Numbered from the stretch's first letter, positions 55,627-61,633 are shown. The stretch: 64,000 nt of DNA from Actinomadura craniellae (GCF_003289645.1 NZ_QLYX01000023.1:1-64000), one strand, 5' to 3'. Numbers and translations: made by a program. The notes: a model not told the origin generated them from the letters alone.

Positions 55627-56586
55627 GTGCCCCATCGGATCGTGCATATGCTCCGGGCCCGCGGAACCAGCCGGCGCCCCGTCATGCTCGCCATCGCCGG
55701 GGACAGCGCGGCGGGCAAGACCACGCTCACCAGGGGGCTCGTGCAGTGTCTGGGGGAGGACCGGATGACCGCGGTCTGCGTGGACGACTACCACCGCTAC
55801 GACCGCACGGAACGCAAGGACAAGCCGTTCACCGCGCTGCACCCCGACTGCAACTACGTCGAGATCATGGAGCAGCACCTGCAGCTGCTGGCCATGGGCG
55901 AGCCCATCCTCAAGCCGGTGTACGACCACTCCACCGGCGAGCTCGTCCGGCCCGAACTGGTCGAGCCGCGCGACTTCGTCATCATCGAGGGGCTGCTTCC
56001 CCTGCACACCCGGATGGCGCGCGCCTGCTTCGACATCACCGTCTACCTCGACCCGCCGGAGCCGCTGCGGCACCAGTGGAAGATCCAGCGTGACTGCGCC
56101 AAGCGCGGCTACACCCCCGACCAGGTGCGGGCCGAGCTGGACCGGCGCGAGCCCGAGAGCGCCGCGTTCATCCGCCCGCAGCGCCGCTGGGCCGACGTCG
56201 TGGTGAAGTTCGCCGAGGTCATCGGGCGCGACGACCCGCCCAACACCCCCCTCTCGGCCGAGCTGCTGCTGCGGCCGACCATCGACCACCCCGAGCTGAG
56301 CGGCGTGCTCGACGACGCCGAGCACCGGGCGATGCACCTGAAACTGCACCGCGACACCGACGGCCGCCCGGTCGACGCACTGCACGTCCACGGGTACGTT
56401 TCGCCCGAGGAGTCCGAGATCGTGAAGAAAGCCATCTGGGAGCGGCTGGACGTCGCCAGCGGCATCCCCCGGTCGCTGGGCCGGATCGCCGACGGCGCCG
56501 ACGACACCGTCAGCGATCCGCTGGCGATCACCCAGTTGCTGCTGCTCTACCACATGCTCGACGCGGACCGCCGCCGCGCGGCATAG
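55627..56586 (+). CDS. prk: Phosphoribulokinase
   Basis: 319 residues. P-loop LAIAGDSAAGKTTLTRGL (Walker A), VDDYHRYDR and VIIEGLLPLHTR, with the C-terminal HVHGYVSPEESEIVKKAIW region, are typical of phosphoribulokinase rather than uridine kinase. It makes ribulose-1,5-bisphosphate from ribulose-5-phosphate and ATP, the substrate of the RuBisCO encoded 4.5 kb away. Start GTG at 55627 with GGAGGA upstream. Followed by an 18-bp-arm hairpin. Confidence 0.94.
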   Translation: MPHRIVHMLRARGTSRRPVMLAIAGDSAAGKTTLTRGLVQCLGEDRMTAVCVDDYHRYDRTERKDKPFTALHPDCNYVEIMEQHLQLLAMGEPILKPVYDHSTGELVRPELVEPRDFVIIEGLLPLHTRMARACFDITVYLDPPEPLRHQWKIQRDCAKRGYTPDQVRAELDRREPESAAFIRPQRRWADVVVKFAEVIGRDDPPNTPLSAELLLRPTIDHPELSGVLDDAEHRAMHLKLHRDTDGRPVDALHVHGYVSPEESEIVKKAIWERLDVASGIPRSLGRIADGADDTVSDPLAITQLLLLYHMLDADRRRAA

Positions 56587-56783: not shown

Positions 56784-57398
56784 CTACTCGGCCCGCCCGT
56801 CGCGATCTTGCAGGTACCGGGTCTGGTCCCGGAGCCGCCGGGCATCCGTCTCGTAGACCCGCTCGGCCGTCTCCAGCAGCTGCGCCGCGATCAGGTCGAG
56901 CTGGGCGGCCAGTTCCTCGGCGGCGCTGCGCCGGCCGCCCGGAGTCCGCCCGGAGGCGAACCAGCCGGGCAGGTTGAGGTAGGTCTCGAACCCCTCCGGC
57001 AGGTCGGTGCGGACGACCCGGGCGATCTCGTACCGCGCGTCGGGGTCCAGGGACAGCACCTCCCGGCGCGCCAGCAGCTCGCGCACCAGCCCCACGATCT
57101 CGCCGAACCTGACCATGGCCCCCGGCGGCACCCGGCCGGCCTGCCCGGCCACCCGCTCCACCAGCACCTCCAGGTCCGCGCGCAACCGGCCGGACTCGGC
57201 CGCGGTGTCGTCGAGCACCAGCACGACCCGCTCCGGCGGCGCGGCCAGCGCCCCGGCCGCGTACAGCCCCGCCACCACGAACAGCCAGTACGGCCCGGCC
57301 AGCCCCGCCAGGTGCAGCCCGAGCCCGGCCAGCCCGCAGGCCGAGCCGGCGAGGTTCTTGGTCGAGCCGAGATAGGCCCAGGCCCTACTGGTAGCCAC
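56784..57398 (-). CDS. Two-span membrane protein of the TelA-linked operon
   Basis: 204 residues. Two to three hydrophobic segments near the N terminus (about 15-55), then a soluble helical part with conserved-looking GAMVRFGEIVGLVRELL and RRSAAEELAAQLDLIAAQLL. The gene is last in an operon with TelA- and VWA-type proteins, where XpaC-like small membrane proteins are often found; the XpaC relation is inferred from context and not from a clear motif. It overlaps the VWA gene by 14 bases. Confidence 0.7.
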   Translation of the reverse strand: MATSRAWAYLGSTKNLAGSACGLAGLGLHLAGLAGPYWLFVVAGLYAAGALAAPPERVVLVLDDTAAESGRLRADLEVLVERVAGQAGRVPPGAMVRFGEIVGLVRELLARREVLSLDPDARYEIARVVRTDLPEGFETYLNLPGWFASGRTPGGRRSAAEELAAQLDLIAAQLLETAERVYETDARRLRDQTRYLQDRDGRAE

Positions 57399-58977
57399 GG
57401 ATCTCCCGGAAGACGGTCGCCAGGGACTGCGACCGCGCGTCGAAGGTACGGCCGCCGGTCAGCCGGGCGAGCTCGGCCATCTCGTCGGCCCTCGCCTCGC
57501 CGAACAGCACCGCGAACACCGGCACGGCGCGCGGCCCCTCCGGCAGCCCGGCGTGGAACAGCCGGAACTGGGCCAGGCGGGTGCCCGCGGTGTTCTCCCC
57601 GTCGCTCATCAACACGATCGAGGTGTACCGGTCGGGGTCGCGGGCGGCCTGCTCCCCGGCGACCCGGTAGGCGGCGGCCAGGCTGTCATAGATGGCGGTG
57701 CCGCCCCGCGGGTTCCGTAGCGCGCCCGCGTAGTTCCTGATCCGGGCCAGTTCGGCCGCCGGATCGCGCTCGGGGATGACGTAGGACACCGGTCTCCCGG
57801 GCCGGCTGTTGAAGAGCATGAGCGTCACCTCCTCCCGGTTGTGGAACCGCTGGAACCGGCCGGCCAGGCTGCCGTCGGCGCCGGTCAGCGCGGTCAGCGC
57901 GGAGCGCAGCCCCGCGATCCGGTCCCCGGCCATCGACCCGGAGACGTCCAGGACGTAGATCGTGCGGGCGGGCCGCCGGAACTCGTCGTAGTACGCGGCC
58001 ACCAGCGTGTCCACCGCGTCGAGGCGGGAGGGGAACGGCAGCTCGGGCGGGCTCTCCCCGAACCTCGCCTCCGGCCGGACCTCGGGCACCGCCGGCCGGC
58101 GGTGCGTCCGGGACATGATCTGGCGCTGCACCTCGGGGCGCCGCAGGTAGCCGGTCAGCCTGGCATGGGCGTCACGGGCGGCCGCGGGCGCCGAGGCCAG
58201 CAGGGTCAGCGGGTAGTCCGCGGTGATCACCCCGTCCCGCGGACGGATGATCGTGAACTGTTCAGGCAGCCGGCCCGACGCGTTCAGCGCCAGCAGCTCC
58301 GACTCGTAGTTGAACATGCCGTCCACCTCGGCCCCCGCCGAGTTCCGGTCCACCAGCCGCTCCGACAGCCAGCCCGAGGATCCGGAGGTGAGCCGCTGGG
58401 CGGAGAAGAACCGCTTCAGCCCGGGGGCCTGCGCCCGGATGGCGGCGGCGTCCAGCGCTGTCCCGCTACCGGACAGGGCCGCGGTCACCGCCACCAGGGT
58501 GGAGAAACCGGAGTTGGAGGCGGCCGGGCTGGTCATGCCGTAGCCGAACCGTCCCTTCCCGGCGGCGTCGGCGATCTCGGCCCAGGTCGGCGGCGTGGCG
58601 TCCCAGCCGAGCTGGGACGCCACGGAGGCGCGCAGGCCCAGCACCACCGGCGACCGCATCGTCCGGACGGAGGTGCCCAGCTTGGCCCGGGCACCGGTGT
58701 GCAGCGTCAGGTACCGGTCGGAAGAGAACCAGACGGCCTCGTACCGGCCGTCGGCCTTGCCGTCCAGCACCCGCTGCACGCCGTCGAGGGTGCCCGCGAA
58801 GTCCAGCTCCACCTCCACCCCGATCTCGTCCTCGGCCTGTTCGAGGATCGGCCGCAGGTCGGCGAGCTCGCTGCCGGCCAGCACGCGCAGGGTGGTCTCG
58901 TCCTCGCCCAGGTCGACGTCACAGGCCGCCGTGACGGCCAGCAGCGTCAGCGCGGCCAGCGCCGCCCGGAGCCTCAC
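57385..58977 (-). CDS. Lipoprotein with solute-binding and VWA domains
   Basis: 530 residues. Signal peptide (RLRAALAALTLLAVTAAC; lipobox Cys about 19), then a periplasmic-binding-type solute-binding domain (about 30-300) and a von Willebrand A domain (about 335-520). The metal-ion-dependent adhesion site is DVSGSMAGDR (D-x-S-x-S), with a later SDGENT-type loop (IVLMSDGENTAGT). Such proteins bind a ligand outside the membrane. The GTG start overlaps the TelA stop (GTGA), so the two are coupled. Confidence 0.88.
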   Translation of the reverse strand: MRLRAALAALTLLAVTAACDVDLGEDETTLRVLAGSELADLRPILEQAEDEIGVEVELDFAGTLDGVQRVLDGKADGRYEAVWFSSDRYLTLHTGARAKLGTSVRTMRSPVVLGLRASVASQLGWDATPPTWAEIADAAGKGRFGYGMTSPAASNSGFSTLVAVTAALSGSGTALDAAAIRAQAPGLKRFFSAQRLTSGSSGWLSERLVDRNSAGAEVDGMFNYESELLALNASGRLPEQFTIIRPRDGVITADYPLTLLASAPAAARDAHARLTGYLRRPEVQRQIMSRTHRRPAVPEVRPEARFGESPPELPFPSRLDAVDTLVAAYYDEFRRPARTIYVLDVSGSMAGDRIAGLRSALTALTGADGSLAGRFQRFHNREEVTLMLFNSRPGRPVSYVIPERDPAAELARIRNYAGALRNPRGGTAIYDSLAAAYRVAGEQAARDPDRYTSIVLMSDGENTAGTRLAQFRLFHAGLPEGPRAVPVFAVLFGEARADEMAELARLTGGRTFDARSQSLATVFREIRGYQ

Positions 58978-60146
58978 GCGCCGGACTCCTCGCCACGGTG
59001 GCGGGCGCGCTCCAGATGGGCGCCCGCCCGGGTGAGTTCGGCGCCGAGCGCGTCCACGGTGGCCTGCATGCTGGTCAGGGACTGGGCGCGGAAGCCGTCG
59101 ATCGCGTCGATCGTCTGGTAGATCTGCTCGAACGAGCGGCGCAGCGTCTCGACCCCGACGGCCGGGTCGGCCGCGATCTGCTGGATCTGCGCGCTCTGCC
59201 CGGCGAGCATCTCGGCGTTGGCCCGGATCAGGTCCTCGGTCGTGCCGCGCAGCGCGCCCACCTGTTCGATGACCTGTTTCTGGTTGGCGAGCGCGGCGGC
59301 GACGGTGACCGCGATCCGCAGCGCGGAGACCGTGGTGGACGCGGCCCGGTCCACCCCCTTGATCAGCTCGTCGTTGTTGCGCCGCACCGCGTCCAGGGCC
59401 AGGTAGCCCTGGGCGCAGACGGCGAGCTGGGTGAGCAGGTCCTGGTGCCGCTGCCGGACGGGGAAGAGCACGTCGGCGCGGAGCGCGTCGGCCGCGGCCG
59501 GGTCGGCGGTCTCGGCGACGGCCCGTTCCACGGCGGTGTCGACGGCCTGGGCGTACACGGCGTGCTCCTGCAACCGCCCCATGGTCCGCCACAGGTCGGC
59601 GCGCTCGTTCTGGATGGCCGCGTTGTCGCGGCGCAGCTCGTCCTGGCCGGACCGGAGCGACATCACGATCTTGTTGATGTTGGTGTTCGCCGACTGGTAG
59701 CGGGAGACGAAGTCGCGCAGCGCGTTGCCGAACGGCAGCCGCGACAGCAACCGGCGGGCCGTCGGCCGGCCGGCGTCCTTGGGGTCGAGGTCTTCGACGG
59801 TCCGGCGCAGCTCGACCAGGCCCTGGGCGACCCGCTGCTGGGCGCTCCGGTCCGCGCCCTTGGCCGCGGCCAGCGACGCCACCGTGCGGTCGAGCATCCG
59901 GTCGGCGGCCCGGGCGGAGGTGCGCATCTCCCCGTCGCCCAGTGCGGTGACCTCCCCCGCCCGGGTGACGAACTCGGGCGAGCGGGGGTCGAGGCCGGTG
60001 AGCACGCCGGCGAACTCGGCCGCCCGGCGGCCGAGTTCGACGCGGGTGTCCCCGTCCACCGGGATGAGCGTCGCGGCCCGCTCCGCCGGAATCGGTTCGA
60101 CCGGTTCGGGCGGGGTGAGGACCAGGTCGGCGCCGGTCTCTGCCAT
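58974..60146 (-). CDS. TelA-like toxic-anion resistance family protein
   Basis: 390 residues, largely alpha-helical and coiled-coil, no signal peptide. TelA family features: PFGNALRDFVSRYQSANTNINKIV in pieces, LRRDNAAIQNERADLW, and the C-terminal ANQKQVIEQVGALRGTTEDLIRANAEML. TelA proteins were linked to tellurite and membrane-stress resistance, but the mechanism is unknown. ATG 60146 has CTGGAG upstream; a longer start at 60191 overlaps the previous gene by 14 bases and is less likely. Confidence 0.88.
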   Translation of the reverse strand: MAETGADLVLTPPEPVEPIPAERAATLIPVDGDTRVELGRRAAEFAGVLTGLDPRSPEFVTRAGEVTALGDGEMRTSARAADRMLDRTVASLAAAKGADRSAQQRVAQGLVELRRTVEDLDPKDAGRPTARRLLSRLPFGNALRDFVSRYQSANTNINKIVMSLRSGQDELRRDNAAIQNERADLWRTMGRLQEHAVYAQAVDTAVERAVAETADPAAADALRADVLFPVRQRHQDLLTQLAVCAQGYLALDAVRRNNDELIKGVDRAASTTVSALRIAVTVAAALANQKQVIEQVGALRGTTEDLIRANAEMLAGQSAQIQQIAADPAVGVETLRRSFEQIYQTIDAIDGFRAQSLTSMQATVDALGAELTRAGAHLERARHRGEESGA

Positions 60147-60177
60147 GTTCGGGAACTCCAGTCGCTCGCGGACGCGG

Positions 60178-61251
60178 CTAGGGCGGGCCATAGCCCTGCT
60201 CGATGCCGCGCACCAGGTTCTCGAGGGTGCCGTAGGAGGGGGTGTCGACGACGTCGACGAGGTCCGCGGTCACCGGCACCCGGTTCTCGGCGACGACCTT
60301 CGCGAACCGGGCGGCGTCGGCGGTGCGCAGGCCGTGCCGGGCGGCCGCCTGCTGGAGCGCGGGATCGGAGGTGAGCAGCCGGCCCACCCGGTCGCCGCCG
60401 GAGTTCAGCGGAACCAGCGTGTGCTTGGACACCACGGTCGGCGACGGGTACATCAGCACCATCCCCGGCCGGATCTGCCCGGTGACGGCCCGCCCGACGA
60501 ACTGGGCCTCGTAGATGCAGACCAGCGGCGTCTTGCCCATCCCCACCGCCAGGTAGTCCTCGAAGGGGCCCTCGCTGGAGTTCTCGCTGTAGCCCTGGTC
60601 GAGGAAGAGCCGCGACAGCAGCGGCAGCACCCGGCGCTCGGCCTCGGCGCCCTGCACGATCGCGTCCCCGTTGGCCACGTGGCTGACGAGCGACAGGTAC
60701 ATGGCCGCGGAGTTGGAGTCGCGCACGTCGGTGGTGGAGACCAGCACGTTCTTGCGCACCGGGTAGGCGGTGTTGCCCCTGATCTGGTCCCAGCGGGTGC
60801 CCTTCTCCACCAGTTCCAGGTAGCGGCGGACGTCGAAGATCCAGATGCCGCCCGCGCCCCGGCGTGCCACGCCCGCCCCGGCGAGGACATCGACGATCGG
60901 CTGGAAGCTGGCGATCGCCATCGGCGTGGAGAACGGCGCGTACTTGGCCGTCCGGCCGTGCCGGCGCAGGATCTGCTCGGCGGCGGGCGCCCCGCCAGGG
61001 AAGGCGAAGGCGTAGTTGTCAAGGTTGACGGTGGTGGCGATCTGCCGGGACCCGGCCGGGTCCACCTCGACGCGCAGCCCATGCCGGGCGAACGCGTCCC
61101 GGACGGCCGGGTCGGCGAAGAACGGGAGCTTCTCCGAGCCGATCACGCCTCGGACGGTGACCGTGTCCGAGGCCCCCCGGCCCAGCACGATCGCGATGAT
61201 GACCCCGATGGCGAGCCCCGTCGCCAGTATTAGGGAGAGAACCCTTTTCAT
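60178..61251 (-). CDS. Membrane-anchored extracellular solute-binding protein
   Basis: 357 residues. One N-terminal hydrophobic segment (about 5-25) with no lipobox Cys, then a periplasmic-binding-protein-like domain with VIGSEKLPFFADPAVRDAF, LDNYAFAFPGG and a late ADLVDVVDTPSYGTLENLV. It is the first gene of the TelA/VWA operon. The related solute-binding part of the downstream VWA lipoprotein suggests the two partner. No permease or ATPase is encoded beside it, so it is not a normal ABC importer. Confidence 0.8.
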   Translation of the reverse strand: MKRVLSLILATGLAIGVIIAIVLGRGASDTVTVRGVIGSEKLPFFADPAVRDAFARHGLRVEVDPAGSRQIATTVNLDNYAFAFPGGAPAAEQILRRHGRTAKYAPFSTPMAIASFQPIVDVLAGAGVARRGAGGIWIFDVRRYLELVEKGTRWDQIRGNTAYPVRKNVLVSTTDVRDSNSAAMYLSLVSHVANGDAIVQGAEAERRVLPLLSRLFLDQGYSENSSEGPFEDYLAVGMGKTPLVCIYEAQFVGRAVTGQIRPGMVLMYPSPTVVSKHTLVPLNSGGDRVGRLLTSDPALQQAAARHGLRTADAARFAKVVAENRVPVTADLVDVVDTPSYGTLENLVRGIEQGYGPP

Positions 61252-61327: not shown

Positions 61328-61633
61328 TCAGTCCGATGGGCGGCGGAGCAGCCTGTTCAACGCCGCCGCAACCTCTTCGGAAAGGCCCGGAGCGGGCTCG
61401 GCGGGCTCGGTGGAACGGACGGCCTCGCGGACATGCCCGCAGTCACGGCACTCGACCTCGCCCAGCCGGCAGATCAGCGCCACCGACCCGCAGGAGGCGC
61501 ACCGGTCGAGTTCGGCCGCCTCCTGGCAGCCAGGGCAGATCAACACCTGGCGGTCGGCCCGGACCCCACGCCGCCACGGGCTCGGCCCCCGGGTGGGGTC
61601 GGTCTGCCGCGCCCCGCAGCGGAAGCAGGGCAT
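61328..61633 (-). CDS. Small zinc-ribbon protein
   Basis: 101 residues with several CxxC pairs: CFRCGA at the N terminus, LICPGCQEA, DRCASCGS and VECRDCGHV, i.e. a duplicated zinc-ribbon (rubredoxin-like) arrangement. The C-terminal helix (LSEEVAAALNRLL) follows. Function unknown. It is 76 bp upstream of the solute-binding gene on the same strand and may be cotranscribed, although an AT-rich spacer could hold a separate promoter. Confidence 0.7.
   Translation of the reverse strand: MPCFRCGARQTDPTRGPSPWRRGVRADRQVLICPGCQEAAELDRCASCGSVALICRLGEVECRDCGHVREAVRSTEPAEPAPGLSEEVAAALNRLLRRPSD

Follow-up and report, generated by a model that had tools for sequence, protein, structure and literature searches.

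Four overlapping genes on the minus strand of the window, as we call the whole 64,000-nucleotide stretch of Actinomadura craniellae DNA that was analysed, make up what we consider with high confidence to be a single functional unit. They occupy positions 56784-61251 and encode a membrane-anchored binding protein (S), a TelA protein (T), a binding protein fused to a VWA domain (V) and an XpaC-like membrane protein (M). The features of these proteins are given in Table 1. It may well be that S and V constitute an extracytoplasmic receptor that signals via M to TelA in an envelope-stress response, and this is the reading we prefer. The operon would then be a set of candidate external sensors and a membrane adaptor for TelA, all encoded side by side.

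Table 1. Coordinates of the S-T-V-M genes and of features within their products, counted from the first letter of the window.
Feature	Position	Strand	Basis
S: substrate-binding protein of class II (sulfate/molybdate-like fold), anchored in the membrane by its N-terminus, 357 aa	60178..61251	-	ORF, model, fold match
S: N-terminal hydrophobic helix, residues 4-24, putative signal anchor	61180..61242	-	model helix 2-24; position same in homologues
T: cytoplasmic coiled-coil protein of the TelA family, 405 aa	58974..60191	-	PF05816
V: SBP-VWA fusion lipoprotein, 530 aa	57385..58977	-	Pfam; GTG start
V: lipobox cysteine C19 (VTAAC)	58921..58923	-	Cys in 91/94 homologues
V: MIDAS DxSxS, D344-S348	57934..57948	-	invariant in 94/94 homologues
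V: MIDAS T427	57697-57699	-	invariant in 94/94
V: MIDAS D459	57601-57603	-	invariant in 94/94
M: XpaC-like adaptor, membrane hairpin and helical cytosolic domain, 204 aa	56784..57398	-	ORF, model
M: predicted membrane hairpin, residues 13-52	57243..57362	-	two model helices

Neighboring genes overlap by 14 nt (S/T), 4 nt (T/V, where the GTG start of V overlaps the TelA stop) and 14 nt (V/M), which is the pattern of a translationally coupled operon. A longer mechanical ORF for V, beginning at 59592, was rejected as the start, the extra part running inside T. A scan of the operon for sigma-70 promoters and terminators gave nothing useful. A preliminary description of this DNA had listed two solute-binding-like proteins, one of them fused to a VWA domain with an intact DxSxS site, on either side of a TelA-like protein, with a small membrane protein at the end of the operon and with neither an ABC permease nor an ATPase. 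Our analysis is in full agreement with it. The minus strand carries all four ORFs, the fold of S and the SBP_bac_11 match of V mark these two as binding proteins, T lies between them, and the last gene encodes a protein with a predicted hairpin of borderline hydropathy. The permease and the ATPase that together with a binding protein make up an ABC importer are absent from the operon, and no family of either kind recurs beside its relatives in a clustering of neighbor genes from 94 loci in 23 clades.

No Pfam family was matched by S, and a search of PDB sequences with it returned nothing significant. Its AlphaFold model (pLDDT 91 with a 23-sequence alignment) has the two-lobed fold of class II substrate-binding proteins, and S is a binding protein by this predicted fold only. 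In a VIA-align comparison the best match of the model was the sulfate-binding protein 1sbp (Z 24.9, 275 residues, 3.1 Å), followed by further sulfate-binding matches 5um2 (Z 24.8) and 6ddn (Z 24.1). Weaker matches were to thiamin, hexose-phosphate and iron binders and to 6lkg (Z 20.9), which we take to be HptA, a sensory binding protein, the PDB title itself naming a two-component system protein. Such sensory proteins resemble S in that a binding-protein fold is used for sensing, but there is no histidine kinase in the S-T-V-M operon and the sequence relation is remote. The modelled fold of S hints at an anionic ligand, although a shared fold is no proof of one. When the profiles of S and V were compared, the match was 98% with an E-value of 2e-14 across the SBP domain, and stretches conserved in both proteins (GSE, AG[ST], SNS and YE) were aligned with each other. 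S and the N-terminal, SBP-type half of V are paralogous, or sister, domains.

The N-terminal half of V belongs to SBP_bac_11 (PF13531, 39.1 bits versus a cut-off of 25), and the C-terminal half is over the cut-off for VWA_2 (29.4 bits versus 27) and also for VWA_CoxE. The DxSxS motif reads D344-V-S346-G-S348, and with the threonine and the second aspartate all five MIDAS residues are in place. A search of PDB sequences with V found just VWA domains and a weak SBP match. The same domain order is seen in the RefSeq “Substrate-binding and VWA domain-containing proteins”, a name that is borne by the V protein of a Variovorax plasmid. This wider family is more distant (E about 1e-45 to V) and its function is likewise undescribed.

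In the model of M (pLDDT 87), two hairpin helices spanning residues 13-30 and 35-52 are followed by helices that cover residues 62-203. The hydropathy of the hairpin is borderline in the window protein (1.53) but clear in its homologues, where it reaches 2.16. Pfam does not match M to any family, PF10112 (XpaC, cut-off 29.8 bits) included, and this cut-off is exceeded by no protein in the window's own genome. A fold search with the M model similarly gave no PDB match at E ≤0.001. When M was compared with the XpaC profile by hhalign, the result was 72% (E 3.5e-5) for an alignment of 18 sequences and fell to 21% for a larger alignment of 66 sequences. The controls, in which reversed M, TelA and M' (a different membrane protein, see below) were compared with XpaC, all stayed below 1%. 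Because 21% compares with less than 1% for the controls, we keep the relation between M and XpaC as a remote similarity and do not claim membership of PF10112. In an Eggerthellaceae-type operon of Coriobacteriia that also contains V, S and TelA (L067), the place of M is taken by a PF10112 protein (39.5 bits versus 29.8). Judging by its role and by this distant resemblance, M appears to behave like an XpaC protein.

T is a TelA protein (PF05816, E 2.7e-81, 273.7 bits versus a cut-off of 30, profile positions 14-331 of 332) and the sole one of its genome. A PHROGs search with T gave only a weak match, to a TelA-like tellurite family, and phage records contained no close TelA relative. The ability to tolerate nisin, daptomycin-like peptides and tellurite has long been linked with TelA and XpaC, and we know of no input or mechanism for either of them.

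The preliminary description had linked TelA to membrane stress, and the literature supports this. The xpaC-yaaN (XpaC-TelA) genes belong to the sigma-W regulon of B. subtilis (PMC3498285), the XpaC-like and TelA genes of L. lactis are induced through CesSR (PMC3139573), and the corresponding Listeria genes lmo1966-1967 are induced by bacteriocin, with the lmo1967 mutant reportedly being more sensitive to nisin and tellurite (PMC12791056). In addition, E. faecium with a mutated liaR has an increased level of xpaC (PMC10269926). The presence of XpaC-TelA pairs, or of xpaC, in these envelope-stress regulons speaks for the envelope-stress role that we propose for the operon. TelA has also been proposed to build sub-membrane structures in the Ter system (PMC7824862), and its name is shared by an unrelated LXG toxin (PMC5555719). 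The S-T-V-M operon resembles xpaC-yaaN of B. subtilis and the related operons of Listeria and Lactococcus in that TelA is paired with a membrane protein bearing a helical cytosolic domain. It differs in that a further two binding proteins, both extracytoplasmic and one of them with a VWA domain, accompany this pair, and in that the window M is unmatched by PF10112.

A check of co-conservation across actinomycetes had been suggested earlier, and we found the four genes kept together in the window organism's family, in a reshuffled order in Coriobacteriia and in another phylum. The operon was first seen in a number of genera of the family and in a single genome from beyond its order. In the sample of 201 family genomes, V is present in 76 and TelA in 56, and all 56 TelA genomes also bear V (hypergeometric 4e-33, a value not corrected for kinship). 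TelA there always lies between S and V, and the neighborhoods read S-T-V-M. In a sample of 296 genomes of the phylum, S was found in 10 and TelA over the cut-off in 13, and the eight genomes that have both always carry them next to each other. Coriobacteriia, a class assigned here from the gene content of the genomes, keep all four genes in the order S-V-M-T or V-M-S-T. Outside the phylum, the same four genes are carried by a Sphaerotilus plasmid (Betaproteobacteria; identities of 47, 46, 43 and 34%), the S-T-V-M set is present on a Variovorax plasmid (Betaproteobacteria), and S-V-M is kept in Deinococcus. The gene set spans three bacterial phyla, the share of Deinococcus being S-V-M only. The neighbor-gene clustering placed S in 20, V in 18, M in 9 and T in 9 of the 23 clades, counts that are lower bounds owing to the simple gene caller. 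No other neighbor family was found in more than 4 of the 23 clades, and the flanks are not conserved.

The earlier statement that the function of such clusters is not described was borne out by the open-access papers, among which we found no published description of an SBP/VWA/TelA cluster. As judged from sequence comparison, the present analysis adds to the preliminary description the likely role of M as an XpaC-like partner of TelA, the paralogy of S with the SBP half of V, a range beyond actinomycetes and the putative other outputs of S-V.

The co-occurrence of the genes was counted at 111 V loci. T is present in 72 of them and M accompanies it in 72 of 72 (the M at three Coriobacteriia loci was assigned by hand), so that every TelA-bearing V locus has the arrangement of an XpaC-TelA module, in which the gene next to TelA encodes a membrane protein whose cytosolic domain is helical. 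M without T occurs at 10 loci, S-V without M or T at 16, S-V with the different membrane protein M' at 8, and V alone at 5. Since TelA at these loci is always accompanied by M while M can stand without T, TelA appears to depend on M and not vice versa. The tree of V calls for a minimum of 11 changes in T and of 9 in M. Of six independent pairs, M changed in the same direction as T in five and in the opposite direction in none (p 0.06, with few pairs). A strict joint gain and loss of T and M turned out to be too strong a claim because one family (f19) keeps M without a linked TelA. Its S-V-M operon stands apart from TelA, which at the six loci that were read (L171-L176) is found in a separate operon that also encodes a TerD-domain protein (PF02342, 141 bits) and a paralogue of M devoid of membrane segments. 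Furthermore, one genome has a bare TelA-M pair (L069), solitary TelA genes occur as well (L070 and L073), and one genome (G381) contains S-V-M and no TelA anywhere. TelA in V-bearing operons therefore seems to need an M-type partner, whereas M seems able to serve S-V without a linked TelA. The 16 loci with S-V only and the 5 with V alone indicate that V has some use of its own. In L125, L134, L136 and L137, a solitary V lies at or near the genes that flank the window operon, encoding a peroxiredoxin and a zinc ribbon, which suggests a step-wise loss of S, T and M.

The S-V pair is also found with other partners. At one locus (L029:6336-8369), a Ser/Thr kinase and a membrane stretch are fused ahead of S, which forms the extracytoplasmic part, and V follows; this fusion was seen once, its genus being represented by three genomes. 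The window's own genome contains a second S-V pair (L030:7234-10814, contig C1), in which M and TelA are replaced by M', a membrane protein of about 250 aa with a YLD motif, and further copies of M' follow S-V elsewhere. M' is not over the cut-off of any Pfam family, and profile comparison rejected it as a relative of M or XpaC. In four other loci (L019:7235-8764, L059:6526-8007, L060:6980-8536 and L126:6131-7630), S is extended at its N-terminus ahead of the membrane helix by a sequence that carries the motif RF.G..[VI]RDFVP.LVER and belongs to no Pfam family. V lies alongside the extended S in L126 only; none adjoins the L019 copy, L059 or L060. Such swaps of the output (the kinase fusion, M' and the S extension) are the pattern expected of a receptor pair and not of an importer. 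We propose that S-V may be a general extracytoplasmic receptor pair with interchangeable outputs, namely M with TelA, M alone, M', a kinase fused to S and an N-terminal cytosolic domain fused to S. If this is true, S-V is an undescribed class of bacterial envelope sensor, a portable pair that would be new among the known ones, and its TelA branch is the first with a defined input for TelA.

The mechanism that we envisage is as follows. The products of the four genes would form one membrane-spanning complex for envelope-stress sensing and response. On the outer side, S with its anchor and the lipoprotein V would act as a receptor pair whose ligand is probably either a small anionic molecule or a component of the envelope, and the Mg2+ site of the VWA domain probably serves the two proteins for docking, be it with each other or with a partner. 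M would cross the membrane as a hairpin and communicate what state S/V is in to the helical domain that it has in the cytosol, and this domain would hold or release TelA. TelA would then act beneath the membrane and protect against envelope stress. The scheme builds on several direct observations: the four genes and their overlaps, the folds of their products, a MIDAS with no residue missing, conservation of the genes as a set, and the reliance of TelA on an M-type neighbor in these operons. From these we infer the physical complex, the class of ligand, the direction of the signal and the output. Both the kinase-S fusion and the extended forms of S are as expected of a sensor. On the other hand, S-V without M or T at 16 loci, V alone at 5, M without a linked TelA at 10, the G381 genome devoid of TelA, the remote homology of M to XpaC, the single occurrence of the kinase-S fusion and the borderline hydropathy of M all speak against the scheme. 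With the candidate sensors and the adaptor encoded next to TelA, the question of the TelA input is open to deletion and pull-down tests.

Several other explanations have to be weighed against this one. The operon could be a variant of Ter toxic-anion or xenobiotic resistance, in which V and S capture an oxyanion or a peptide outside and TelA with its partner builds a sub-membrane barrier. This is unlikely, but it overlaps with the receptor scheme and differs from it mainly in the ligand and the output. The published Ter model (PMC7824862), the oxyanion-type SBP fold of S and the presence of TelA beside TerD in a Curtobacterium plasmid all point in this direction. The Ter stress system (TerC, TerD, the VWA protein TerF and TelA) shares TelA and a VWA protein with S-T-V-M, and in family f19 TelA and the M paralogue are in one operon with TerD. 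However, TerC and TerD, one or both of which accompany TelA in a Ter system, are absent from the window operon and do not recur beside it. PADLOC found no match of the operon to known defence models, and V is an extracytoplasmic lipoprotein fused to an SBP domain, whereas TerF is cytosolic. We regard it as rather improbable that S and V are orphan binding proteins that feed an ABC importer encoded elsewhere, perhaps for sulfate, molybdate or phosphate, with TelA and M as bystanders. Across clades the locus has no recurrent family of permeases or ATPases, importers do not include a VWA domain, S is fused to a kinase in L029, and T and M are retained through changes of gene order and across phyla. 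These observations stand against the sulfate-binding-protein fold of S and the SBP_bac_11 match of V, as well as against a polyphosphate kinase gene beside S-V in two genomes and PhoX upstream of the Sphaerotilus operon, all of which would suit an importer.

A machine of the VWA/MoxR type that serves as a chaperone or assembles the envelope, with V as an extracytoplasmic co-chaperone and TelA as a scaffold, is quite improbable. VWA domains bearing a MIDAS often partner MoxR ATPases (PMC7824862) and V also matches VWA_CoxE, yet no AAA ATPase is found in the operon or recurs beside it, and V is a lipoprotein outside the cytosol. Finally, we give hardly any credence to the possibility that the linkage is a neutral gene order inherited by descent without joint function. 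The co-occurrence counts do come mostly from one family, but Coriobacteriia have reshuffled the order and kept all four genes, the same set is found in Pseudomonadota, and the flanking genes are not conserved.

Some features of the surroundings should be mentioned. A 101-aa zinc-ribbon-like protein with no Pfam family over the cut-off is encoded at 61328-61633, on the same strand and 76 nt upstream of S, and a similar gene lies upstream of S or V in four relatives (L032, L117, L125 and L121). Downstream of the operon, on the other strand, is a phosphoribulokinase-type gene (55627-56586; PRK07429, 408 bits), and the host is not expected to fix carbon. In two genera, S-V is directly followed by the polyphosphate kinase gene and a NUDIX-like gene (L131:2275-6197 and L135:4826-8691), and these neighbors together with PhoX in Sphaerotilus raise a possible phosphate link. 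Near the Variovorax copy, a flotillin and an OB-fold protein are encoded on the opposite strand (L077:1515-3910); flotillins in Bacillus are envelope-stress proteins too. In the Vibrio plasmid pAM7 (L080:1-9022), parts of an ABC transporter stand in one cluster with TelA, a VWA protein and two SBP proteins, one of them of the SBP/OmpA kind, and the SBP and VWA genes are not close relatives of S or V. Also of note is that PLSDB lists NZ_LT559118.1, which comes from Nonomuraea and measures 11.85 Mb, among the plasmids, although this record almost certainly represents a chromosome.
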